From: an uncultured Candidatus Actinomarina sp.
GTDB lineage: Bacteria > Actinomycetota > Acidimicrobiia > Actinomarinales > Actinomarinaceae
Length of the DNA stretch: 64,000 bases
Direction of reading: 5' to 3'
Assembly (NCBI GenBank): GCA_902619825.1
Contig: CACNFT010000005.1
Coordinates: 1-64,000, forward strand
Made by a program: the position numbers and the translations under genes. The notes beneath the pieces are model-generated. The model searched no databases and was not told the origin of the DNA. It was given only the letters and a program-made list of their open reading frames with translations. The first letter of the stretch is position 1, and each line of letters opens with the position of its first letter. Below are positions 44,518-58,313 of the stretch, one piece after another.

Positions 44518-45525
44518 ATGCGCAAAAGTTGGGCAGTAGGCCTAATTATTATCAGTATTCTTACTATGGCCTGCGGTGGAGCCGCAGACGTAGATGATTA
44601 CAAAGCTGCATTTGTGTATGTAGGACCAGCTGACGATGGTGGATGGTCACAAGCACATGATGTGGGTCGACAATTCTTAGTAGATGAAACTGGAATCGAA
44701 ACAGCTTACACAGAGCTAATTCCTGAGGATGCTACTGAGTTCAGAACAGTTGCAGAAGCTTATATTGAACAAGGTTACAATATTATTTTTGGAACAACCT
44801 TTGGTTACATTGATGCTATGGCAGAAATGGCAGAGGAATATCCAGACGTAATATTCCTTCATTGTTCAGGCTACTTAAGTAATGACAGTAACTTTGGAAA
44901 CTATTTTGGAAAAATGTATCAACCAAGATACCTATCTGGTTTAGCTGCAGGAGCAATGACAGAATCAAACAAAATCGGTTATGTTGCTGCATTTCCTATT
45001 CCTGAGGTTATTAGAGGAATCAATGCTTTTGCTACTGGTGTAAAAGAAGTAAATCCAGATGCTACAGTTGAGGTTGTTTGGACATTCACATGGTTTGGAC
45101 CTGAAGAGGAAACTCAGGCAGCAAATGCTCTAATTGAGACAGGTGTGGATGTATTAGCTCAACACCAAGACTCACCTTCAACTGGTGTAGTTGCAGAAGC
45201 AAATGGAGCAAAATGGATCTCATATAACACTGCATACGGTCAAGAAGCTGCACCGGGCGCATTTGTTACAGCTCCAGTTTGGGCCTGGGGACCATATTAT
45301 GTTGACGTTGTAAATTCAATTATCGATGGTGAATTTGCAGGTGGTGCTTATTGGGGTGGAATGGATACTGGACTTGTCTCATTATATGACTTAAGCTCTG
45401 ATGTTCCATCTGACATTGCCGATTTAATTTCACAAAGAACAGATGAAATTATTGCAGGTGATTTTGATCCTCCAATAGTTGAGGAAGAGTTCATCGACAA
45501 CGTTATTGGTACAGTTAGCCCGTAA
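44518..45525 (+). CDS. BMP-family (PnrA-like) nucleoside ABC-transporter substrate-binding lipoprotein
   Basis: A 335-residue lipoprotein. The signal sequence has a lipobox ending LTMAC with the acylated Cys at residue 19. The mature part begins with YKAAFVYVGPADDGGWSQAHD and includes GTTFGYIDAMAEMAEEYPDVIF, the BMP/PnrA pattern. Family members bind purine or other nucleosides. It is the first gene of the operon and is followed by a strong hairpin terminator at 45536-45570, which would make it more abundant than the ATPase and permeases downstream. Confidence 0.92.
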   Translation: MRKSWAVGLIIISILTMACGGAADVDDYKAAFVYVGPADDGGWSQAHDVGRQFLVDETGIETAYTELIPEDATEFRTVAEAYIEQGYNIIFGTTFGYIDAMAEMAEEYPDVIFLHCSGYLSNDSNFGNYFGKMYQPRYLSGLAAGAMTESNKIGYVAAFPIPEVIRGINAFATGVKEVNPDATVEVVWTFTWFGPEEETQAANALIETGVDVLAQHQDSPSTGVVAEANGAKWISYNTAYGQEAAPGAFVTAPVWAWGPYYVDVVNSIIDGEFAGGAYWGGMDTGLVSLYDLSSDVPSDIADLISQRTDEIIAGDFDPPIVEEEFIDNVIGTVSP

Positions 45526-45535
45526 CAATTATTTT

Positions 45536-45570
45536 TAAAACACTCCAGCTTTAATGCTGGAGTGTTTTTA
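45536..45570 (+). terminator. Rho-independent terminator between the binding-protein and ATPase genes
   Basis: A perfect hairpin with arms ACACTCCAGC and GCTGGAGTGT and a six-base loop (TTTAAT), flanked by A and T tracts. The stem is 13 bp with the A/T extension. It is 11 bases after the binding-protein stop and 14 before the ATPase start; partial read-through would set the expression ratio. Confidence 0.92.
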
Positions 45571-45583
45571 CTACCATTACTAA

Positions 45584-47080
45584 ATGAAAAAATATATTCT
45601 CGAAGCAAAAAATATTTCAAAATCTTTTGGAAATGTGAAAGCACTTGAGGATGTAAACTTCTATCTGCAAAAAGGAAAAATTCATGGCTTACTTGGGGAA
45701 AATGGTGCGGGTAAATCATCATTAATGAATATACTTTCGGGAATCTATCAGCCTGAAAAAGGAAGTATATATATTAATGATATTAAACAAAAAAGTCTTG
45801 ATCCTGAGTCTGCATCAGAACTTGGAATTGGAATGGTACACCAAGAATTCAGACTTATAGAAAGTTTTAGTATTCAAGACAACTTAACACTTTCAAAAGC
45901 AAATATTTATCAAGACAATTTCAAAGAAGCATATGACAAATATTCTGAAATATTTTCTTTATCTGTAAATCCTGAAAAGAAAATTGTACAACTTTCAGTT
46001 GGAGAAAAGCAAAAAATTGAAATAATGAAATTAATTTTTAAAAACAGCAACATTATGCTTTTAGATGAACCTACTGCTGTTTTGACACCTCAAGAAACAG
46101 ACCAACTAAGGATTTCTCTAGAAAGATTGTCAGATGAAGATGAAAAAACCATTGTATTGATTTCTCATAAACTTAGAGAAATCAGAGATTTTACAGAAAA
46201 AGTTTTTGTAATGAAAAATGGAAAAATGGTTGCTGAAGATCTTTCAACGGTAGATGTTACTGACGATGATCTTGTTGAATTAATGATGGGAAGTATGCAA
46301 AAATCAATTATCGACAAATCAAATAAGACTGGAGATACAAAATTAAGCGTAGAGTCAATCGAATATATCGATAGAGTAAGTAATTATAAGATTTTAGAAG
46401 ATATTAGTTTAGAAATAAAAGCTGGCGAAATTCTTGGCATTGCAGGAGTATCTGGAAATGGACAAGTAGAACTTGCAAATATTATTAGTGGTGTTGAGAT
46501 TGATTATTCTGGAAAAATATTCATTAATAATAAAGATGTTTCAAGAAAAGGAGTTAAGTCTCGAAAAAAACTTAATTTGTCTTACATTCCTGAAAATAGG
46601 CTTGGTGTAGGATTAGCACCAGGTGTCTCTGTTTTAGACAATTCAATAGTTAGAGATTATTTCAAAACAAGACTGGGTCCACATCTCTCTAGATCTAAAA
46701 CTGAAACTTATCTTGAAAGTTTAATTAAAAAATTTTCAATTAAAGCTCCAGATTCGAAGGCGGAAATATCAACTTTATCAGGTGGAAATATGCAGAAGTT
46801 ATTGATGGGAAGAGAGTTGGTCAGTAATCCAGAAGTAATTATTGCTTCGCAACCAACGAGAGGTCTTGATGTAAATGCTGTAGAAGCTATTCATACCTTG
46901 CTCGTTGACCAAAGAGATAAGGGCTCAGCTATTTTGTTGATTTCAGAGGATCTTGATGAATTATTTAAATTAAGCAATCGTCTACATGTTATGTATGAAG
47001 GAAAAATTGTAAAATCATTCGACATTGACAATGCAGATATTAATAATGTTGGTCTTGCAATGGCAGGTGTAATTGAATAA
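45584..47080 (+). CDS. Nucleoside/sugar ABC-transporter ATPase with two ABC domains
   Basis: A 498-residue ATPase of the RbsA/NupA type. The first domain has LGENGAGKSS, signature LSVGEKQK and LLDEPTAVLTP. The second has AGVSGNGQ at the Walker A position (degenerate, as usual in this family), signature LSGGNMQK and Walker B-like VIIASQPTRGLDV. It energises the BMP-type importer and overlaps the first permease gene by 8 bases. It is transcribed past the terminator at 45536-45570 or from a separate promoter. Confidence 0.92.
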   Translation: MKKYILEAKNISKSFGNVKALEDVNFYLQKGKIHGLLGENGAGKSSLMNILSGIYQPEKGSIYINDIKQKSLDPESASELGIGMVHQEFRLIESFSIQDNLTLSKANIYQDNFKEAYDKYSEIFSLSVNPEKKIVQLSVGEKQKIEIMKLIFKNSNIMLLDEPTAVLTPQETDQLRISLERLSDEDEKTIVLISHKLREIRDFTEKVFVMKNGKMVAEDLSTVDVTDDDLVELMMGSMQKSIIDKSNKTGDTKLSVESIEYIDRVSNYKILEDISLEIKAGEILGIAGVSGNGQVELANIISGVEIDYSGKIFINNKDVSRKGVKSRKKLNLSYIPENRLGVGLAPGVSVLDNSIVRDYFKTRLGPHLSRSKTETYLESLIKKFSIKAPDSKAEISTLSGGNMQKLLMGRELVSNPEVIIASQPTRGLDVNAVEAIHTLLVDQRDKGSAILLISEDLDELFKLSNRLHVMYEGKIVKSFDIDNADINNVGLAMAGVIE

Positions 47081-48131
47081 CTTTAAACTTTTTAAAAGAC
47101 AAACAGTAAATGAACTATCAACTTTTTACTCTTTTTTAATAGGATTTATAATTGCCATAATTATTGGTTCGATAATATTACTTATACAGGACAAAAATCC
47201 AATAGATACTTTTTCATTAATGTTAAGACTCTCTGTGGGAAGTGTTAATAGCTTAAGCTCATCTTTAAATAAAGCGATTCCACTTATACTTGCTGGTCTG
47301 GGAATTTCTATTATTAATTCTGTCAAGTTATGGAATATTGGTGCAGAAGGCCAAATTTTCTTAGGGGCCATTGCAGTAAATTTTATTTACATAAATACTC
47401 AATTTAATAACCCCTCATTTCATATTCTCGTTTTGCTCCTTGCTGGTTTTGTTGGTGGATCAGTTTGCATATTGATACCAGCAATAACAAAAGTAGTTTT
47501 TGGCGTAAATGAAATAATTACGACACTATTAACAAACTATATAGTTTTTGGTGTGACAATTTTTCTTATTAATGGTCCATGGAAAGATCCTAAGTCTTTA
47601 AATTTTCCAGCTGCAGCATATGTCGGTGAGGAAGTATTTTTACCGACAGTAATTGGGAAGCTTAGTTTTGGATTTTTAATATGTATACTTTTTACTTTCG
47701 TAGCTCATTATCTCAAAAATAAATCTGTATTTGGTTTTGAAATGAGAATTGCTGGTGGGTCTGCAATGACTGCTATTTATGCAGGAATTAATGCAAAACA
47801 AAAAGCTTTTATTGCCATGTTGATTGGTGGAGGTTTTGCTGGACTTGCAGGTGCTATCGAATTGTTAAGCCAAACACACAGAGTCTCTACTGGAATTTCG
47901 CAAGGTTTTGGATATACGGCAATAATTGTTGCTGCAATTACTGGCATGAGACCACTTGGAATTTTCTTAGTTGGTTCTTTATTTGGTGCTCTCTCAATTG
48001 GTGGATCTGTAATACAAACAATTGGAGTAAGTACTTATATTGCAGATATAATTCAGGCTTCAACTCTTTTTGGTGCACTTATAATTCAATTTTTCTTTAC
48101 TTATCAAATAAAAAGAGTAGAAAATGATTGA
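47073..48131 (+). CDS. Nucleoside ABC-transporter permease, first subunit (NupP type)
   Basis: A 352-residue permease with about nine membrane segments. WNIGAEGQIFLGAIA and GVNEIITTLLTNYIV followed later by GGGFAGLAGAIELL are conserved in BMP-type (BPD_transp_2) permeases. It overlaps the ATPase by 8 bases and the second permease by 8, so the two permease subunits are made together. It forms the membrane channel with the next gene product. Confidence 0.9.
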   Translation: MNNFKLFKRQTVNELSTFYSFLIGFIIAIIIGSIILLIQDKNPIDTFSLMLRLSVGSVNSLSSSLNKAIPLILAGLGISIINSVKLWNIGAEGQIFLGAIAVNFIYINTQFNNPSFHILVLLLAGFVGGSVCILIPAITKVVFGVNEIITTLLTNYIVFGVTIFLINGPWKDPKSLNFPAAAYVGEEVFLPTVIGKLSFGFLICILFTFVAHYLKNKSVFGFEMRIAGGSAMTAIYAGINAKQKAFIAMLIGGGFAGLAGAIELLSQTHRVSTGISQGFGYTAIIVAAITGMRPLGIFLVGSLFGALSIGGSVIQTIGVSTYIADIIQASTLFGALIIQFFFTYQIKRVEND

Positions 48132-49047
48132 TATTCAACTTATTGGACTTTTAAATGCAACATTGCAAGCAGCAACTTTGTTATTCATTGCTGCATTGGG
48201 AGAATTAATTACCGAAAAATCTGGAATACTCAACCTTGGAGTAGAAGGTATGATCTCAGTTGGTGCGGTAACTGGCTTCATGACAGCAATTAATACGGAA
48301 AATATATTCCTGGCAGTTTTAGTTGGTGTTTTGTCTTCCTCTATCTTTGCATCAATACATGCACTTGTTACTGTTGTTTTAAAACAAGACCAAACAGTCT
48401 CAGGATTGATTCTTACAATTTTAGGTTTAGCCCTCTCATCATTACTTGGGAAAAATTACGTCGGAAGAAAGCTTGTTACAAAATTAGAAAGTGTTAGCTC
48501 AATAACAGAACCTTCAAATATAATTGAGGTCTTAATCAGCCAAAATATAATCTTTTATTTAGCTGTTGTTTTAATGATATCTACATCCTTTGTATTAAAA
48601 CGAACAATGTTTGGTAGAAGGCTTGAAGCTGTCGGGGAGGACTCTAAATCATCAGATTCAATGGGTTTAAAAGTTGCAAAAACACAATTTATCGCAACTT
48701 GTGTAGGAGGTGCATTTGCAGGACTTTCAGGTGTTTATCTCACACTAAGTTATGTTCCATATTGGACTGATAACATGACTTCAGGAAGAGGCTGGATTGC
48801 TTTAGCACTTGTTATATTTGGGGGTTGGAAGCCATATAGAACTGCTTTGGGTGCACTTTTGTTTGGATTTCTAGAAGCCTTGGTTCCAAGATTACAAACT
48901 TATGGTTTTGAATTAAGTCCTTACATAGTAAAAATAACTCCATACGTAATTACGATTTTGGTTTTAGTTATTCTTACAATCTATAAAGGAGGAAAGACAG
49001 GAGCACCTAGAAATATTGGAGTTCCATTTTTTCGAGAAAATAGATAA
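48124..49047 (+). CDS. Nucleoside ABC-transporter permease, second subunit (NupQ type)
   Basis: A 307-residue permease with eight or nine membrane segments. ALGELITEKSGILNLGVEGMI and VGGAFAGLSGVYLTLSY are typical of the second permease of BMP-type importers. It ends the importer operon; a 7-bp hairpin follows and then the pyr operon. Confidence 0.9.
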   Translation: MIDIQLIGLLNATLQAATLLFIAALGELITEKSGILNLGVEGMISVGAVTGFMTAINTENIFLAVLVGVLSSSIFASIHALVTVVLKQDQTVSGLILTILGLALSSLLGKNYVGRKLVTKLESVSSITEPSNIIEVLISQNIIFYLAVVLMISTSFVLKRTMFGRRLEAVGEDSKSSDSMGLKVAKTQFIATCVGGAFAGLSGVYLTLSYVPYWTDNMTSGRGWIALALVIFGGWKPYRTALGALLFGFLEALVPRLQTYGFELSPYIVKITPYVITILVLVILTIYKGGKTGAPRNIGVPFFRENR

Positions 49048-49050
49048 TTA

Positions 49051-49075
49051 ACCAAACGTATTCAACAAGTTTGGT
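49051..49075 (+). terminator. Weak hairpin after the importer operon
   Basis: Arms ACCAAAC and GTTTGGT with an 11-base loop, directly after the permease stop (49047). No T tract follows, only alternating AT, so it is at best a weak terminator or a 3-prime end stabiliser. Confidence 0.4.
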
Positions 49076-49094
49076 AATATATATATAGCTTTAA

Positions 49095-49119
49095 ACAATG
49101 TCAGCGAGCATTGAAAGGA
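49095..49119 (+). promoter_or_regulatory. PyrR-binding-loop-like hairpin overlapping the pyrR ribosome-binding site
   Basis: Arms CAATG (49096-49100) and CATTG (49109-49113) enclose the loop TCAGCGAG, which fits the CNGNGAG core of the PyrR RNA-binding consensus. The Shine-Dalgarno AAAGGA (49114-49119) follows immediately and pyrR starts at 49124. An AT-rich -10-like stretch lies at 49078-49087, so the mRNA may begin near the hairpin. This fits translational repression of the pyr operon by PyrR. Confidence 0.45.
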
Positions 49120-49123
49120 TAAA

Positions 49124-49600
49124 ATGACAATAGATAAAATTCTATTCCGCCTCAGTAAAGAAATCATTGAATCAAACACAGATAATCCATACTTATTAGG
49201 CATACCAAAAAGAGGAGATCTTCTAGCTCAAAGGATATCTAATAATTTATTGAGCGAAAACTTTAAACACGACATAGGAAAAGTAGATTACTTACCGTTC
49301 AGAGATGATTTAGATAAGAATCCAAAAAAGAACAATCTTGCTATATCACCAAAAGATAGAGAAGTTATATTAATTGATGACGTTATTTATACCGGCAGAA
49401 CATTAAGGGCATCTATTGAAGCTGTAATGTACTCTGGTCGACCTAAATCTATTTCACTTTTATGTTTAATTGACCGAGGACATAGAGAATTACCTATCAC
49501 CCCTAAATTTGTAGGTAAAAATATACCAACTAATCAAGATGAGTATGTTTCCGTTTTTTTGAAAGAAATAGATAACGAAGACAAGGTCGAGGTTACATAG
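49124..49600 (+). CDS. pyrR: Pyrimidine operon regulator PyrR (uracil-phosphoribosyltransferase-like)
   Basis: A 158-residue PRTase-fold regulator. The PRPP loop IDDVIYTGRT is at residues 84-93, and GRPKSISLLCLIDRGHRELP with FVGKNIPT is diagnostic of PyrR. It binds pyr mRNA when UMP is abundant. The N-terminal half is divergent in the IVGIxxRG region (LLGIPKRGDLLA). It is the first gene of the pyr operon, three bases before pyrB, with a candidate target hairpin just upstream. Confidence 0.92.
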   Translation: MTIDKILFRLSKEIIESNTDNPYLLGIPKRGDLLAQRISNNLLSENFKHDIGKVDYLPFRDDLDKNPKKNNLAISPKDREVILIDDVIYTGRTLRASIEAVMYSGRPKSISLLCLIDRGHRELPITPKFVGKNIPTNQDEYVSVFLKEIDNEDKVEVT

Positions 49601-49602
49601 AA

Positions 49603-50481
49603 ATGAAACATCTTTTAGATTTTCAAGATGTAAACAAAAATCATTTAGAAAATCTAATTGACAAAACTAGAAGTCTTGAAGTTAAACTAGAAAATCTCGG
49701 CTCTTTAGCTCTATTAAAGTTTGACGAACCTTCAACAAGAACGAGACTTTCTTTTGCAATAGCAGCAGATAAACTTGGAATTAAAACTTTCGAAACTTCA
49801 GATGTAGTATCGGCGAAACAAAAAGGGGAAATTCTTAAACATGAGATAGAGACATATGTTTCTATGGGTATTGAAGTTTTAGTATTAAGGACAAAAGAAA
49901 ATAATATCGATGATTATCGAGAATTTAATAACATCAGTGTTATAAGTGCTGGTTTTGGAAATAAATCTCATCCAACTCAAGCATTGATAGATATATCTAC
50001 ACTATATAGCCTGAATAAAATCAATGAAAAACGTACCCCTGTAACTTATGTTGGGGACGTAAAACATTCAAGAGTTTTTGAATCTGGAAGACAGCTCCTA
50101 AATATATTAGGATTCAAAGTTGGTGTCTTTACAGATAAAAAACTATTACCCGACAATAAAAATGACCTTGAAATTTATCAATCATGGGATGAAGTATTTG
50201 AAAATTCTAACGCAATAGAACTTCTAAGAATACAGAAAGAAAGATTAGAAGACAATGAAGAACTAAGCTTTGACGAATACATAAATAGTTATCAACTTAC
50301 AAATGAAGTTTTAAGTAAATCTCAAAGTGATTTAGCTGTTCTTCATCCAATGCCAATCAATATTGGTATTGAGATTTCTAAAGAAGCTATTGAAGATAGC
50401 AAAATGAAATATAAAGACCAGCTTTTACACGCAATACCTTCACGAGTTACAGCCTTCAAATATGTAAGGGATGAAATATGA
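49603..50481 (+). CDS. pyrB: Aspartate carbamoyltransferase catalytic subunit
   Basis: A 292-residue enzyme joining carbamoyl phosphate and aspartate. The carbamoyl-phosphate loop is STRTR at residues 44-48, then SHPTQALIDI and, toward the end, LHPMPINIGIEIS (HPxP). No regulatory subunit gene (pyrI) is present, as usual for this group. It is slightly shorter than typical (about 305-310). It overlaps pyrC by 4 bases (ATGA). Confidence 0.94.
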   Translation: MKHLLDFQDVNKNHLENLIDKTRSLEVKLENLGSLALLKFDEPSTRTRLSFAIAADKLGIKTFETSDVVSAKQKGEILKHEIETYVSMGIEVLVLRTKENNIDDYREFNNISVISAGFGNKSHPTQALIDISTLYSLNKINEKRTPVTYVGDVKHSRVFESGRQLLNILGFKVGVFTDKKLLPDNKNDLEIYQSWDEVFENSNAIELLRIQKERLEDNEELSFDEYINSYQLTNEVLSKSQSDLAVLHPMPINIGIEISKEAIEDSKMKYKDQLLHAIPSRVTAFKYVRDEI

Positions 50482-51533
50482 TTGAAATTCCTGGATTTAT
50501 CGATCTACATACCCATACAAGATATCCTGACAATAATAAATTTCCTTTCATCGATATCGATGATTCAGCAATTAATGGTGGTTTCTCAACAATCCTCGCA
50601 ATGCCAAATTCTGAAATACCTATTGACTCAATCAAAAACCTACGAATTGCAGAGGAAATAGACAAAAAATTAAAAACAAAGGTACACCGTGTTGGCTCAT
50701 TGACCATAAATTTAGAAGGAAAAGAACTTGTTAATTATAAAGAATTCGTTGAAAACGGTATCACAATTTTTTCAGATGATGGAAAATCTTTAATTGATGA
50801 TCATTTAGCTGATGAGGCATTTAAACAAATTAGCAAACTTGGTGGTGCAGTCTTTCAACATTGTGAAAAAAGTTGTCACTCCAAGCCTGGTGATATTGCT
50901 CCACCAAATAGTGATAGTGACTTGATTCCAATAAATAATGATGAGGAGTTGGAAGTTCTTGAAAGAGACTTAAGTTTATCTGAAAAATACGGAACAAGAT
51001 ACCATGCTCAGCACCTTTCAACTTTTGAAAGTGTTCAGCTGATAAAAAAAGCAAAACAAGAGGGTCTTCCTGTCACTGCGGAAGTAACACCACATCATAT
51101 ACTTCTAAATAATGAAAATTTAGACACAAATAATGGACTATTTAAGATGTACCCACCCCTCAGAACTGAAAAGGACAGAGAGGGATTGGTTGATGGCTTA
51201 CAGTCTGAAATTATAGATGTCATTGCTACAGATCACGCACCTCATAAAGCAGAAACTAAAAATGTCCCTTTTAAGGATGCTAATCGTGGCGTTGTTGGTC
51301 TTGAATCAGCTTTTCCTTTGATTTATAGTTCAAATATTTTTGATATAGATCAAATGTTGAAATTTTTAGTCGTAAATCCTACAAAAATACTCAATGAACT
51401 TGGTTACGAAATTCCCAAGACGATAAATACATGGAAGAAATCAAAGTCAGTTTTTATTACAAAATCAAAATTCAAAAATTCATTATTTGAAAATGAAAAT
51501 ATAGAAATTGTAAGGGTTCTTTCAGGTGTATAA
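50478..51533 (+). CDS. pyrC: Dihydroorotase, short form
   Basis: A 351-residue amidohydrolase. It begins almost directly with PGFIDLHTHTRYPD (metal-binding HTH); further ligands are in FQHCEKS, YHAQHLST and ATDHAPH with the catalytic Asp. Typical class I dihydroorotases have about 50 residues of beta-sandwich before this point; they are missing here. The preceding sequence is pyrB coding sequence, so this is not a wrong start. It overlaps carA by 8 bases. Role: closure of the dihydroorotate ring. Confidence 0.88.
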   Translation: MIEIPGFIDLHTHTRYPDNNKFPFIDIDDSAINGGFSTILAMPNSEIPIDSIKNLRIAEEIDKKLKTKVHRVGSLTINLEGKELVNYKEFVENGITIFSDDGKSLIDDHLADEAFKQISKLGGAVFQHCEKSCHSKPGDIAPPNSDSDLIPINNDEELEVLERDLSLSEKYGTRYHAQHLSTFESVQLIKKAKQEGLPVTAEVTPHHILLNNENLDTNNGLFKMYPPLRTEKDREGLVDGLQSEIIDVIATDHAPHKAETKNVPFKDANRGVVGLESAFPLIYSSNIFDIDQMLKFLVVNPTKILNELGYEIPKTINTWKKSKSVFITKSKFKNSLFENENIEIVRVLSGV

Positions 51534-52626
51534 AAAAGCAATTCTGTTGAATCAAAATGGTGATGAATTTCTAGGTTGGACAACTGAAATATTTGAGCCA
51601 ACAACTGGAGAACTTATTTTCAATACAGCGATGACTGGGTTTGTCGAAATATTAAGTGATCCATCATATATAAATCAGATTGTAACTTTTACTTCCTCAC
51701 ATATAGGAAATTACGGTATGTCAAAAAATGATTTTGAATCCAATAAACCAAAAATTGAAGCAGCAATTGGAAATTCTTTTACAAACACTCCATCTTCATG
51801 GAGATCTGAGAAATCAATAACGTCATGGTTGAAAGAATATGAGATTCCATACAGTGGTGGATTTGATGTAAGAAATATAACAAAATATCTAAGAGACAAC
51901 GGTTCGAGTATGTTTGCACTTGGTATAGATGTCGATACAAGAGATTTAAAGGAAATTTTATCAAAAGCAAAAAATATTCTTGGTGACAGTTCAGCAATGA
52001 CTGCAGGAAACCAGAATAATGAAAACACTCCAACTGAAGGAAAGATTGGAATTATAGATCTTGGAGCTAAAAGAAGCATTATAAAAGTGCTTGAAGACCA
52101 TGATTACAAAGTTGTAATGATCTCCCCCTCTACGACATCAAATGAGATTTTAAAAATGAATTTAAAAGGTCTTTTAATTTCGAACGGACCAGGTGACCCA
52201 AGATCATTGCTTACAGTAATAGATACCGTTCAAAACCTTATAGGAAAACTTCCAATATTTGGAATTTGTCTTGGTCATCAAATACTTGCTTTGGCTTGTG
52301 GTCTTAAAGTTAAAAAAATGCAATTTGGTCATCATGGTTCAAATCACCCAGTTGAAATAGAGGGAATAAAAAAAGCACTAATAACCGCACAGAACCATGG
52401 TTTCTCTATTGAGGAGTTTGAAGATGGGTTTGAGCATGAAAATTATGGAAACATTAGTGTCTTTGCAAGGAATTTAAATGATGGAACAAATGAAGGAATT
52501 AGTCTTTGGGATTCCATGGCGTACTCAGTTCAATTTCATCCAGAATCAGGACCTGGTACAACTGATGGATTACAAATTTTTAATCCTTTTTTTGAAATGA
52601 TTGAGAATAACTATGCCAAAAAATAA
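51526..52626 (+). CDS. carA: Carbamoyl-phosphate synthase small subunit (glutaminase)
   Basis: A 366-residue subunit. The N-terminal domain has [17 protein letters not shown]; the class I glutamine amidotransferase domain has the nucleophile Cys in [13 protein letters not shown] and the His/Glu in FHPESGPG. It provides ammonia to CarB. The start is GTG, overlapping pyrC by 8 bases. It overlaps carB by 14 bases. Confidence 0.95.
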
Positions 52627-55600
52627 AGAAATTAAGAGTATTTTGATAATTGGTTCGGGACCAATTGTTATAGGTCAAGCTTGCGAGTTTGATTATTCAG
52701 GATCTCAAGCAGCTAAAGCACTTAAAAAAGAAGGATTTCGTGTAATTCTAGTTAATTCAAATCCAGCAACTATTATGACAGATCCAGAAATGGCACATGC
52801 CACATACATCGAGCCTTTAACTCACAACTACCTAAAAAAAATAATCGAAATAGAAAAGCCTGATGCTGTTTTACCAACATTAGGAGGACAAACTGCACTT
52901 AACTTATCGATTGAATTAGAAAAAAGTGGTGTTTTAAAAGAAAATAATGTGGAACTTCTTGGAGCCTCGGCCAATGCTATTGAGATTGCAGAAAACAGAT
53001 GGAAATTTAAAGAAGCTATGGATGGAGTTGGTATTAAAACACTTAAGGCAACTTATGCTAAATCTTTTGATGAGGGAATAAGCGCTAGTAAAGAAATTGG
53101 TTTTCCATTAATGCTAAGACCATCATTTATTCTTGGTGGTGGTGGAACAAGTGTAGTGAATAATGAAGAAGACTTTAAATCAAAATTATCTGACGCGTTT
53201 AATGCTTCTCCTACTCAGGAAGTCTTAATCGAAGAATCAATATATGGATGGAAAGAATTCGAACTTGAAGTAATGAGAGATAGTGATGGTAATGGTGTAA
53301 TTGTTTGCGGAATAGAAAATTTTGATCCCATGGGTGTCCATACTGGAGACTCAATAACAGTTGCTCCTATTCAAACATTATCTGATAAAGAATATCAAAC
53401 TATGAGGGATGAGGCACTACTTTGTTTGGACACTATTGGAATAGCAACTGGTGGTAGCAATGTTCAATTTGCTATAAACCCTGAAAATGGAGATAGAAGA
53501 ATAATTGAGATGAATCCTAGGGTCTCAAGGTCGTCTGCTCTAGCTTCAAAAGCAACTGGATTTCCTATTGCCAAGTTTGCTGCCCTTTTGGCAGTAGGTT
53601 ACAACTTAACTGAACTTGAAAATGACATAACTGGAACAACACCGGCTAGTTTTGAACCCGTCCAAGATTATGTTGTGGTTAAAATTCCTAGATTTGATTT
53701 TCCAAAATTTCCATCAACAGATGACATATTAGGCACATCAATGCAGAGTGTGGGTGAAGTTATGTCAATAGCTTCTACTTTTACAGAAAGCTTAACTAAA
53801 GCCATTAGGTCACTCGAAATTGGTAAATCAGGAATAAGAAATATAGACAATAGGTTTATAGGAATGCCAAAAGAAATTCTACAAGATGAAATCAGAACAC
53901 CTAGACCTAGAAGAATATTTGCGATCCTTGAAGCGATTAGAAGAAACTGGCCACTTGAAGACATAGCAAAAATATCCTCTGTAGATATATGGTTTTTACA
54001 AGAAATTGAAAAAAGTTTTAATGTTAACCCTGAAAATACTCCATCCTCTGTTCTGAAAATGCTTGGATGGACGGAAGAAGATCTTGATAATAAAGAGTCT
54101 AAAAATGAATTAGAAAATAATAGAGTTTATAAGTTAGTTGATACATGTTCTGCAGAGTTCGAGTCCAAAACGCCTTACTTATATTCAACAAATGGTGTAA
54201 GTAACGACGATACAACAACTGACAAGAAGAAGGTTGTAGTTATTGGATCGGGTCCAAATAGAATTGGCCAAGGAATTGAGTTTGATTATTGCTGTGTTCA
54301 TGGAATCAGTTCATTAAAAGAAAATGGATTTGAAGCAATAATGATAAACTCAAATCCGGAAACGGTTTCTACAGACTACGATACTGCAGATAAACTATAT
54401 TTTGAGCCTCTTACATGGAGAGAAGTAAAATCTGTACTAAATAGAGAAAAGCCTGATTCGGTAATAATTCAACTTGGAGGTCAAACTCCATTAAAACTTG
54501 CAAAAAATATATCCAAAGAAGGTTTTAATATTGCTGGATCATCATTAGATGTAATTGACAAAACAGAAGATAGAGATCTATTTCAAAAACTATGTTTAGA
54601 TCAGAATATTCGACAACCAGAGTCTAAAATCGCAAAAAATGAGAATGAGTTAGTTGAAGCTGTAAAAGAAATAGGTTTTCCAGTCTTGTTACGGCCAAGT
54701 TATGTATTAGGTGGAAGAGCCATGAGAGTTGTTCAAAGTGATGAAGAACTTGAAAATTATTTGGATATATTAGCGAGTGCAGATGAAGATGGTAATCCAT
54801 TTAAATCTGGTCCCCTTTTGGTTGATCAGTTTTTAACGGACACTATTGAAATTGATGTTGATTTAATTTCTGATGGAAAAGAAGTTTATATTGCAGGAAT
54901 TTTAGAACATCTTGAGCCTGCTGGAGTACATAGTGGTGATTCTACAGCGGTCATTCCACCTTATAGTGTTAATGAGGAAATGTTGAAAGAGGTAGAGGAA
55001 AAAAGTAAAAAGCTTGCTTTAGGTCTAAATGTAAAGGGACTTCTAAATATACAATTTGCCATTAAAGATGAAGAATTATTTATATTAGAGGCGAATCCTA
55101 GAGCATCAAGAACGATGCCATTTGTTGCAAAAGTAACCGGCAATCAAATTATTAAAGCTGGAACATTATTAATGCTTGGTTATTCAATTGATGAAGTTAG
55201 AAATAAGACTAAATACTTGAGTAGTTCATCAAATAAAGTTGCAATTAAAAAGGCTATATTTCCATGGTCTAGATTTCCAGCTGAAGACACTATGTTAGGA
55301 CCGGAAATGAAAGCAACTGGTGAAGTATTAGGAGTTGGAAAAGAGTTTGGTACTGCATTAAATAAAGCATATGCAGCTGCAGGTGTAGAAATTAATAATA
55401 AAGAGAAAGGGATATTTGTAACTTTAAGTGACAGCGAAAAGCCAAATTTTATTCAGACAGTCAATAAATATCTTGAACTTGGCTTCACACTTTACTCAAC
55501 TGAAGGAACAGGAAAATTTCTTGAAACTAATGGTATTGATTCAGTAATAGTTGGTAAAGCTGATGACTTAGGACAAACTTCGTTAACAATAATTGAAGAT

Positions 55601-55795
55601 AAATTAGTTTCTTTAGTAATCAATACACCAACATATGCAAATGAATTGTCAGATGGTTGGAAAATTAGACGTTTATCACATGAAACTGGAGTGGCGGTTG
55701 TTTCGTCTGTAAGAGAAGCTGATGCATTTATTGAAGCTTTTTTAAATCAGAACTTAGTGTTAGATGATCTGGAGGTCATACAAGATGTCAGTTAA
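52613..55795 (+). CDS. carB: Carbamoyl-phosphate synthase large subunit
   Basis: A 1060-residue synthase made of two homologous ATP-grasp halves: the first starts [20 protein letters not shown], the second [19 protein letters not shown] near residue 540. [15 protein letters not shown] and [15 protein letters not shown] are the matching ATP-grasp loops. A C-terminal MGS-like allosteric domain follows ([13 protein letters not shown]). I start at ATG 52613 rather than a TTG four codons upstream. Its last 11 bases overlap pyrF. A full-length enzyme serving pyrimidine and arginine synthesis. Confidence 0.95.
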
Positions 55796-56423
55796 ACCAA
55801 TTTTCTTTGCACTGGATGGTAAGTCCCTAAAAGAATTTAAAGAACAATTAGATATCTTAAAGGATCATATTTATGGGGTAAAAGTTGGATTAGAACTTTT
55901 TACTTCTGAAGGCCCTTCATGTATTGAACAACTTAAGAATGATGGGTGGGTTGTTTTCTTAGATTTAAAACTACATGACATCCCAAACACTGTAGGTGAA
56001 GCGGCTGCTTCAGTTTCAAATATTGGAGCAGACTATTTAACTTTACATATATCATCTGGGAAAGAAGCATTATCAGAAGCTGTGGATAAAAAAAGTAAAG
56101 ATTTAAATCTTCTTGGAGTCAGTAGTGCTTTAACAAGTAAATCAGTTGATTCAAATACAAGCAAGATTGTTAAAGATGAGTTTCAAATAGCTAAAGACTC
56201 AAATTTAGAAGGCGTTATTTGTCCAGCATCTGAAATTGCTAATACAGCAAATTTATTTGATCTAATTGTTACACCAGGCATTAGATTAGAAAATGATTTA
56301 CATGGAGATCAAAAAAACATAACTACTCCTAAAAAGGCTATCGAGCTTGGAGCAAAATATATTGTTATGGGACGATCAATTAAAAATAATCCTGCAATGG
56401 TAATAAATGAATTAGAAGTATGA
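55785..56423 (+). CDS. pyrF: Orotidine 5-phosphate decarboxylase
   Basis: A 212-residue decarboxylase making UMP. The catalytic signature [13 protein letters not shown] is complete; the substrate loop has VTPGIRLE and MGRSIKN is at the C terminus. I start at ATG 55785 because GGAGG at 55771-55775 sits nine bases before it; an in-frame ATG at 55764 lies upstream of that site. It overlaps carB by 11 bases and pyrD by 4. Confidence 0.93.
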
Positions 56424-57097
56424 ATAAATTTATTGCAGCACCTTTTGGAAACTACATAAAGACTAAAAATACTATTTCCGTATCTGGTAGTTGGACTGTT
56501 GAAAAAAGAACAGGTCGAATTGTTCAAATAGTTAAAACTTTACGATATACAAAACGTGGATGGGTTAACAAAATTGGTTTAAGAAATCCTGGTTTAACAA
56601 TTGGGCTTCCTAAACATAAGACTGGTGAAGTCTTTTCAATTGCAGGAATAGAAAAAGATGACTGGAGATTATTTGCGGAGAGAATACCAAATGATTTCAA
56701 TATTGAAGTCAATATGTCATGTCCAAATATAGACGCACATTACATTGATGGAATTGAAGATTTTGAGCCAGATACAAGAAACTGGTACATAGGAAAAATT
56801 TCGCCACTTACTACTTTTCAGGAATTGGATGAGTACATCAACAAATTTAGATTCAAACAGATTCATGCATGCAATACATTACCAATAGATAAAGGAGGAC
56901 TAAGTGGTAAAGAGTTAATCCCATATACTTCAAAGTTTGTTAAACACATTAAAGATTCTTATCCTGATATTGAAGTTATTGCAGGTGGAGGTATTGATTC
57001 TCTAAAAGATATAGAGTACTACAAAAATATTGGTGCCGATCATATTAGTTTGGGTACTGTTTGTTTCAATCCACTAAAATTAAGGAAGTTAATATGA
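56420..57097 (+). CDS. pyrD: Dihydroorotate dehydrogenase, short divergent form
   Basis: A 225-residue FMN-barrel protein. Matches to dihydroorotate dehydrogenase are WVNKIGLRNPGL, NMSCPN at 98-103, CNTLPIDKGGLSG at about 151-163, and GGGIDS with ISLGTVC near the end. Normal class 1 and 2 enzymes have 300-360 residues, so several loops are missing. The residue after the NxSCPN block that usually serves as base is not clear. Its place after pyrF supports the assignment. The stop overlaps the next start (ATGA). Confidence 0.78.
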   Translation: MNKFIAAPFGNYIKTKNTISVSGSWTVEKRTGRIVQIVKTLRYTKRGWVNKIGLRNPGLTIGLPKHKTGEVFSIAGIEKDDWRLFAERIPNDFNIEVNMSCPNIDAHYIDGIEDFEPDTRNWYIGKISPLTTFQELDEYINKFRFKQIHACNTLPIDKGGLSGKELIPYTSKFVKHIKDSYPDIEVIAGGGIDSLKDIEYYKNIGADHISLGTVCFNPLKLRKLI

Positions 57098-57450
57098 ATT
57101 TATTTATTAAAGAAGATTTCATCTCTCATGCTGGCTTACCACTTACATGGAAAGTGGAATGTGATGCACTAGATGAAAATGACTACGAAGCATTAGCAAA
57201 AATAGTTAGTGAGAAAATGACTTTTAGAGATGTCAAAGGTATTCCACGTGGCGGCATACCGTTTGAAAAAGCATTAAAACCTTACTGTTCAAATAATGAT
57301 ACAGATCCACTACTAATTTGTGATGATGTTTATACAACTGGTACTTCTATGAGAGAAGTCTATGAAGACGGAGCATTAGGTATTGTTGTATTCGCTAGGA
57401 ATGAAATTCAAGATGACTGGGTTAAAGCTATTTGGCAGTTATCAATATAA
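57094..57450 (+). CDS. Short phosphoribosyltransferase-like protein at the pyrE position
   Basis: A 118-residue PRTase-fold protein. LLICDDVYTTGTSM (about 73-86) is a type I PRPP loop, and GIPRGGIPFEKAL precedes it. The N terminus FISHAGLPLTWKVECDAL resembles a group of small PRTases seen in phages and environmental genomes rather than normal orotate phosphoribosyltransferase, which is about 180-210 residues. It may replace PyrE or act with the next gene. I use ATG 57094 (ATGA overlap with pyrD, Shine-Dalgarno AAGGAAG) and not the TTG 33 bases upstream. Confidence 0.7.
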   Translation: MNLFIKEDFISHAGLPLTWKVECDALDENDYEALAKIVSEKMTFRDVKGIPRGGIPFEKALKPYCSNNDTDPLLICDDVYTTGTSMREVYEDGALGIVVFARNEIQDDWVKAIWQLSI

Positions 57451-57452
57451 AG

Positions 57453-58313
57453 ATGATAGAAAATAAGTATGCCTCAGCTTTAGATGGTCTTGAAATAGAA
57501 GATCCAGTAAAAAGCTTTTTTGATTTCTGTAAAGAACGAGAAAAGATAAGAATTTCACGAGAAAATGGTGAAGATTTTCCATGGAGTGCAGATGAAATTT
57601 TTCAAAATGGAAGGTTCTTGAATGTCTTTAGAGAAGATGATCGAGTTAGTAAATCAATTATTATTTTTGCGGATAATTTAAATGAAGAGCCATCAAAACT
57701 TATTAACGCTGTATTTTTTGCAAGGTGGTGCAATAGGCAAGAAGTTTTAGATACTTTAACGCCCGATGATTTAAATAATCCTGAAAACTTAAAAAATAAA
57801 TTAGAAAGTATTGATCCATGGTGTAATGAAACTGCATATCCGGTTGAACCAGTTACATGGAAAGGTAAACAATACTCAAGAATTGATGCTGCAACTAAAT
57901 TATTTTACGAGATACAAGGTTCTTTATTAAACATTCTTAAATCATCAAACAAAAGTGTAATTACTGCAACCAACAACATAAATAAAGAATTTCAGATGCA
58001 AAATGATTTTCCAATTTTCATGGCAGTGATTGATATTGCTTGGTTTAGACCCGATATTATTCCAATTGAAAGTGAGGTTCCTACAGGAATAGGTGCTGTT
58101 GCTTATCTGGATAGATTACAAAATCATCTTGGTTTAAGTTCCCACCAAGAAGTTGGTGAAAAAATGATTGAACTTCAAAAAACATACTGGCCTGAAGCAA
58201 AACGTGGTTTTAATCCAATAGATATAGAATATTTAGCTTGTGAATGTAGAAAATACTATAGCTATATAAATGGGACAAAGGTTTTTGAAGGTAAAAACAA
58301 ATTTATACCTTAA
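57453..58313 (+). CDS. Protein resembling phage base-modification (5-hmdU DNA kinase helical / aGPT-pyrophosphorylase) families
   Basis: A 286-residue helical protein. Near the N terminus FDFCKEREKIRISRENGE, PWSADEI, then RFLNVFREDDRVSK (54-67) and FARWCNRQE (about 90-97) follow the pattern I recall for the helical domain of 5-hydroxymethyl-dU DNA kinases and the alpha-glutamyl/putrescinyl-thymine pyrophosphorylase clades. Those occur mostly in phages with hypermodified thymine. The C terminus has CECRKYYSYINGT. No P-loop kinase domain is fused. It lies two bases after the short PRTase at the end of the pyr operon. ATG 57453 is used; a TTG inside the previous gene is less likely. Exact role unknown. 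Confidence 0.6.
   Translation: MIENKYASALDGLEIEDPVKSFFDFCKEREKIRISRENGEDFPWSADEIFQNGRFLNVFREDDRVSKSIIIFADNLNEEPSKLINAVFFARWCNRQEVLDTLTPDDLNNPENLKNKLESIDPWCNETAYPVEPVTWKGKQYSRIDAATKLFYEIQGSLLNILKSSNKSVITATNNINKEFQMQNDFPIFMAVIDIAWFRPDIIPIESEVPTGIGAVAYLDRLQNHLGLSSHQEVGEKMIELQKTYWPEAKRGFNPIDIEYLACECRKYYSYINGTKVFEGKNKFIP

Follow-up and report, generated by a model that had tools for sequence, protein, structure and literature searches.

The window, meaning the whole 64,000-nt stretch of DNA analysed here, carries on its plus strand a run of pyrimidine biosynthesis genes that opens with pyrR (49124-49600), encoding a PyrR regulator / uracil phosphoribosyltransferase of 158 aa. The product scores 167.3 bits against NCBIfam NF003549 (cut-off 138) and 168.1 bits against NF003548, whose cut-off of 218 it does not reach; its relatives at 91-95% are records of Candidatus Actinomarina / the OCS155 cluster, and the window belongs to Candidatus Actinomarina (Acidimicrobiia). 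Two nucleotides after the pyrR stop begins pyrB (aspartate carbamoyltransferase, 49603-50481), followed on the same strand by pyrC (dihydroorotase, 50478-51533, 4-nt overlap with pyrB), carA (carbamoyl-phosphate synthase small subunit, 51526-52626, overlapping pyrC), carB (the large subunit, 52601-55795, overlapping carA), pyrF (OMP decarboxylase, 55764-56423, overlapping carB) and a dihydroorotate dehydrogenase-like gene (56420-57097, 225 aa, 4-nt overlap with pyrF, Pfam DHO_dh 48.1 bits). From pyrR to pyrF the genes thus overlap or nearly touch, so that blocking a single ribosome site could be enough to control the whole operon. Read off the junctions, pyrR-pyrB spacing is -4 to +3 nt at 28 of 30 Actinomarina loci (L012 and L013 differ).

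The Pfam match of the dihydroorotate dehydrogenase-like gene is best in its C-terminal part, and 225 aa is unusually short for pyrD. A gene for a Pfam HMUDK_hel protein (5-hmdU DNA kinase, helical domain; 57432-58313) lies where the pyr genes end; it is found in 35 of 42 Actinomarina genomes and in several of these ~8.3 kb downstream of pyrR; the ORF before it (57061-57450) has no Pfam match and shows by eye a phosphoribosyltransferase-like LLICDDVYTTGTS motif. Directly upstream of the pyr genes and on the same strand, 44518-49047 encodes a Bmp/PnrA-type substrate-binding protein, an ABC ATPase and two permease-like proteins, possibly a nucleoside uptake operon adjoining pyr.

Between these two gene groups, at 49088-49119 on the plus strand, is the hairpin that concerns us. 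A first-pass annotation had described it as a 5-bp stem, CAATG (49096-49100) and CATTG (49109-49113), enclosing TCAGCGAG with its CNGNGAG core, and had placed it directly before AAAGGA (49114-49119) and the pyrR ATG (49124). The hairpin and its placement are confirmed, but its boundaries are not: it is larger than first reported. As RNA, 49088-49126 reads GCUUUAAA-CAAUGU-CAGCGA-GCAUUG-AAAGGA-UAAA-AUG. The pair U101.G108 (numbered by last digits) adds a sixth base pair to the upper stem, now CAAUGU:GCAUUG (49096-49113), so that what remains unpaired at its tip is the hexaloop CAGCGA (49102-49107), of the CNGNGA form that terminates PyrR binding loops; below it CUUU (49089-49092) pairs with AAAG (49114-49117) in an additional lower stem, with AAA (49093-49095) bulged on the 5' side. 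CUUU is invariant in the genus, and the bulge, which corresponds to the purine-rich 5' internal bulge of PyrR loops, is AA followed by A or U, the first two A being invariant (A6 and A7 of alignment A1, below). The Shine-Dalgarno (SD) sequence of pyrR, AAAGGA, is read directly from the sequence, and its AAGGA is invariant in 31 leaders; its AAAG part is the 3' arm of the lower stem. The earlier proposal that the hairpin sequesters the SD therefore stands only in altered form, the 5-bp stem not holding it and the lower stem pairing part of it.

Folding energy says little about this structure. ViennaRNA recovers both stems at -5.4 kcal/mol, with CUUU shifted one base 3' (CUUU:AAGG), but the value is ordinary (z -0.81), and since 41 of 200 shuffles fold equally well it proves nothing; the support for the hairpin is comparative. 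Among the 139 CNGNGA words on both strands of the 64-kb window, four have a stem of at least 5 bp and a single one has the full element with lower stem. The Rfam model RF00515, which at 115 nt includes the attenuator part, gave no match at cut-off in the window or its own genome; it does align to the element in the same register, at 14.4 bits (E 6.3), well short of its gathering score of 54.

Conservation and covariation of the element

We found pyrR in 31 of 42 Actinomarina genomes; the other 11 are 51-89% complete, so the lack of pyrR there is no evidence of loss. The element precedes pyrR in all 31 leaders examined, in 16 distinct sequences. Every loop reads C-N-G-N-G-A, with the C, G, G and A positions invariant, and is closed by U.G or C.G except for an A.G mismatch in two leaders (L006 and L007). 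Stem letters, in contrast, change by pairs, with two-sided changes at four of the six upper-stem pairs. In alignment A1 (16 rows, one per distinct sequence) standard pairs make up 99.4% of the pair cells, against 92.5 in shuffles and at most 57.6% in slid registers, and two-sided-change cells number 20, against 6.4 +/- 2.5, a count reached by 0 of 500 shuffles. Two other measures are weak: A1 has 9 further pair types where shuffles have 9.6, and its 4 pairs with two-sided change were equalled by 21 of 500 shuffles. The lower stem is nearly constant within the genus, and covariation for it comes only from other genera. RNAalifold, supplied with no structure, returned from the 31 leaders exactly the 10-pair structure described above. 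With a covariance model built from these Actinomarina elements (R1), each of the 31 pyrR-bearing genomes, and none of the other 11, yields a single site of 49-57 bits; nothing else scores above 21.6 bits. The window element scores 50.9 bits; the next match in its own genome, at 20.3 bits, was considered as a second PyrR site and set aside, as it falls inside an ORF and was taken as chance.

The same element was sought elsewhere by a strict scan, which asked for CNGNGA, a 5' bulge and no fewer than 5 upper and 4 lower pairs, and which recovers it in 29 of the 31 Actinomarina leaders, against 8 of 1550 shuffles. Matching genomes of other Acidimicrobiia numbered 83 and gave 80 leaders (in G093 the gene lies too near the contig end, and G073 and G059 are partial); the scan hit 76 of these, against 30 of 4000 shuffles and 0 of the 80 reverse strands, and in two of the leaders that it missed (L120 and L142) the element is present by eye with one upper-stem mismatch. 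We aligned 58 elements, namely 10 of the 31 Actinomarina rows and 48 of 55 rows chosen by 5' motif, as A2, leaving out seven CUUU-type rows whose register differs. In A2 97.3% of cells pair, and two-sided-change cells number 115, against 29.9 +/- 8.3 in shuffles, although the seven pairs with two-sided change were equalled by 122 of 500 shuffles. Here the lower stem does covary, its middle pair (A2 columns 3-29) being G-C, U-A or A-U. Compensatory change thus maintains the stem in both alignments. With such changes in the stem and invariant letters in the loop, the hairpin passes the test on relatives' pyrR leaders that the first-pass annotation had named as able to refute it, and its interpretation as a PyrR target is supported at the level of sequence.

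Beyond the class, the element is present in 26 of 30 leaders from a first sample of other Actinomycetota and in 19 of 20 from mostly larger genomes, including ones of 6-9 Mb, many of them in the form UCCUUU...AAGGAGG. The compactness of the control element had been read as a solution for a reduced genome. As the same element sits at a ribosome site in Acidimicrobiia of 1.5-5 Mb and in other Actinomycetota of up to 9 Mb, its compact form is no product of genome reduction, and that reading is ruled out. Short PyrR loops, missed by Rfam's attenuator-length model, are widespread in Actinomycetota.

PyrR and the top of the upper stem

Actinomarina departs from its relatives in one part of the RNA and in the protein. 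According to PMC7430163, PyrR recognizes the loop, the top of the upper stem and the purine-rich bulge, and the canonical top is ARUC ... GGYU. This top, with U.G as its second pair, occurs in none of the 31 Actinomarina elements, where the second pair below the loop is A-U (17), G-C (12) or G-U (2). In other Acidimicrobiia the second pair is U.G in 72 of 75 elements, and its 5' member is a pyrimidine in 75 of 75, as it is in 26 of 26 elements of other Actinomycetota, again mostly as U.G.

On the protein side, RNA binding by Bacillus subtilis PyrR involves Thr18, His22 and Arg141. The residue equivalent to His22 is Lys in 30 of 30 Actinomarina PyrR sequences, against 0 of 60 others, and the position equivalent to 18 is F or Y in the 30 compared. 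The DRGHR motif is kept, as is an arginine at window residue 9. The N-terminus (49124-49160, residues 1-12 in the window) is ~10 aa shorter, query residue 3 aligning to chain residue 12-15 of PyrR relatives in the PDB. Given the changed stem top and the Lys at the His22-equivalent, recognition must differ from that of the PyrR proteins that have been studied. A strict co-change of RNA and protein at residue 22 was considered and is weakened: Tyr occupies position 22 in 13 of 19 loop-bearing loci among PyrR relatives (mostly Lactobacillus), so that most loop-bearing Firmicutes PyrR carry Tyr and the residue is not invariant. The Lys and the second-pair change are, moreover, one evolutionary event, and as such no proof of co-evolution. 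A clade-specific change of both RNA and protein offers a natural test of PyrR-RNA recognition.

Control of the operon and competing explanations

Upstream of the element we predict an extended -10 box, TGGTAATAT (TGnTAnnAT, 49072-49080, plus strand), which would place the transcript start near 49086-49089. In 30 of the 31 Actinomarina leaders a TGnTAnnAT precedes CTTTAA by exactly 17 nt (background, 112 of 10029 30-nt windows), and 61 of 75 other Acidimicrobiia have a TAnnnT 4-18 nt ahead of the element (background, 13 of 748). Transcription thus probably starts at the 5' edge of the element, at or within ~3 nt of the lower stem, which would make the 5' UTR ~35 nt long. An inverted repeat in this region, ACCAAAC...GTTTGGT (49050-49075), was set aside, being present only in L001 and L002. 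The start codon follows the loop by 16-18 nt in 29 of the 29 Actinomarina leaders counted (the two A.G leaders were left out), and is ATG in 16, GTG in seven and TTG in six. Folding puts the SD at ~40% open on average in the RNA alone, so that occlusion by bound PyrR would be a likelier block than the RNA fold itself. The loop adjoins or overlaps the first ribosome-binding site with no terminator, the arrangement of the Mycobacterium smegmatis type; the leader of that species reportedly has a single loop at its first ribosome-binding site.

We consider PyrR-dependent translational repression of the pyr operon through 49088-49119, much as in M. smegmatis, the best reading of these sequences, with a probability of roughly 0.86. 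The Actinomarina pyr leader would be essentially one PyrR binding loop. At high UMP/UTP, PyrR-UMP would bind the CNGNGA hairpin, lock the weak CUUU:AAAG stem and cover AAAGGA, and ribosomes would then be unable to start pyrR. Since each downstream gene overlaps the one before it or, for pyrB, begins 2 nt after it, the block could pass by translational coupling to pyrB, pyrC, carA, carB, pyrF and the dihydroorotate dehydrogenase-like gene, and faster decay of the untranslated mRNA would probably add to it. When pyrimidines are low, PyrR would leave, the weak hairpin would open and the operon would be translated. Pyrimidine synthesis in this lineage of very small ocean actinobacteria, whose genomes are near 1 Mb, would then have a concrete feedback switch that can be tested.

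Precedent for this exists, as the first-pass annotation noted, in mycobacteria: PyrR-dependent translational repression in M. smegmatis is reported by Fields and Switzer (2007). Actinomarina would resemble that system in control of pyr genes by PyrR at translation, and leaders of the same form occur in large Actinomycetota genomes. It differs from M. smegmatis in its second pair (A-U, G-C or G-U, not U.G), in a weaker lower stem (CUUU:AAAG, without an outer C-G pair) and in a PyrR with Lys at the His22-equivalent and a shorter N-terminus; the sequences that follow leaders L293-L296 start with what we take to be a PyrR N-terminus of mycobacterial type. With the B. subtilis attenuator, as modelled in RF00515, the element shares the lower stem, the 5' A-rich bulge, the 6-bp upper stem and the CNGNGA hexaloop in the same register, but there is no antiterminator or terminator in Actinomarina, where control is predicted at translation. 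The window thus very probably works like the M. smegmatis system with the recognition pair changed, that is, by a known control in slightly re-coded form. Among the papers returned on PyrR in Actinomarina or actinobacteria, none has a title or abstract opening that concerns this element.

Other explanations fit the locus less well. A Bacillus-like transcription attenuator, in which PyrR favours an intrinsic terminator before pyrR, has the merit that the same loop does precede terminators in a Lactobacillus (an RF00515 match) and in 8 of 80 and 10 of 39 leaders from two samples of Acidimicrobiia (below). In the window, however, the ATG follows the upper stem after only 10 nt, and 49020-49220 contains no terminator-like site, in agreement with the first-pass view that an antiterminator/terminator pair is missing; we reject attenuation for the window as very improbable. 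We think it unlikely, if a little less so, that the hairpin is a constitutive mRNA structure, tuning translation or mRNA stability, to which PyrR ceased to bind as protein and loop drifted. The altered stem top, the altered residue at the 22-equivalent and the shorter PyrR N-terminus could all be read as signs of such drift. Yet neither the bulge nor the unpaired C, G, G and A of the loop vary, although the stem changes pair by pair; this counts against a plain structure, which would need no fixed loop letters. The site is, moreover, found only before pyrR, and PyrR retains DRGHR as well as the arginine at window residue 9.

Scarcely credible is a DNA operator for a repressor protein, even though the element is an inverted repeat near the predicted promoter. 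The element coincides with the predicted start and extends downstream of it, its conserved loop is asymmetric, and it always stands in sense orientation (reverse strand, 0 of 111). The G.U-type pairs of its stem, U.G at the closing position in 10 of 31 elements and G.U at the second in 2 of 31, are meaningful in RNA alone. Translational repression by PyrR remains our preferred reading of the window.

Leader ORFs in relatives

Many relatives place something other than pyrR itself behind the loop. We examined the 80 leaders of non-Actinomarina Acidimicrobiia described above and 40 further ones, 39 of them with the element, the latter being the highest-scoring new matches and not a random sample. 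In these 120 leaders the loop is followed by pyrR's own start in 64 and by a leader ORF in 46, the other 10 having neither or no clear element. The leader ORF stops within -6 to +14 nt of a pyrR-frame start in 43 of the 46 (L251, L270, L274 and L286 are examples of the 46), for the most part at an offset of 4 or 13; a third-frame control gives 0 of 46. We take a stop on or next to the pyrR start as a sign of translational coupling. Of 15 ATG leader ORFs in other Actinomycetota, six stop at the pyrR start in the same way.

A terminator follows the loop in 8 of the 80 first-sample leaders and in 10 of the 39 element-bearing leaders of the second sample. Of the first eight, seven have an ATG placed like pyrR's start elsewhere (chance 1.6e-6 by shuffling), and of the second ten, all have an ATG in that place which is out of frame with pyrR (expected, 1.6; P = 1.1e-8), although the leaders are related by descent and these shuffle-based chances ignore kinship. 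The ORFs read through the terminator in all eight first-sample cases (one with a TTG start) and run past it in all ten of the second. The ORFs that contain a terminator are those of L119, L122, L129, L130, L134, L144, L178, L179, L257, L262, L263, L275, L281, L283 and L286-L289. The 3' arm of the loop lies at the SD position of these ORFs, which suggests PyrR-gated, translation-coupled attenuation.

The leader-ORF pattern gives independent support for an actinobacterial PyrR loop that acts on ribosome entry. The closest precedent comes from E. coli, with a different protein and RNA: according to PMC5574718, CsrA represses iraD through a coupled short uORF. The protein blocks the SD of this uORF, and the uORF's stop overlaps the start of iraD, an arrangement like that of the leader ORFs in the relatives. 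The parallel does not extend to the window, where pyrR itself would be gated. We found no description of such an arrangement for PyrR in the open literature, most subscription papers lying outside the scope of the search, and it may be previously undescribed.

More tentatively, and at slightly less than even odds, we suggest that the PyrR loop of Actinomycetota is a ribosome gate, with its 3' arm as SD, that has three outputs: pyrR directly (Actinomarina and most of the Acidimicrobiia sampled), a coupled leader ORF whose stop overlaps the pyrR start, and a leader ORF with an internal terminator, where PyrR would block the ribosome that prevents termination. Actinomarina would add to this a re-coding of the loop-proximal pair and of the residue 22-equivalent, possibly an orthogonal PyrR/RNA pair. 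The leader-ORF versions point to a path from translational repression to transcription attenuation, or back, by means of one unchanged element. Two AT-rich Acidimicrobiia of family f8, genus g9, have leaders of other form: the pyrR leader L189 has two CNGNGA hairpins ~50 nt from each other, both lacking the usual lower stem, and in L187 a single CNGNGA hairpin has a different lower stem.
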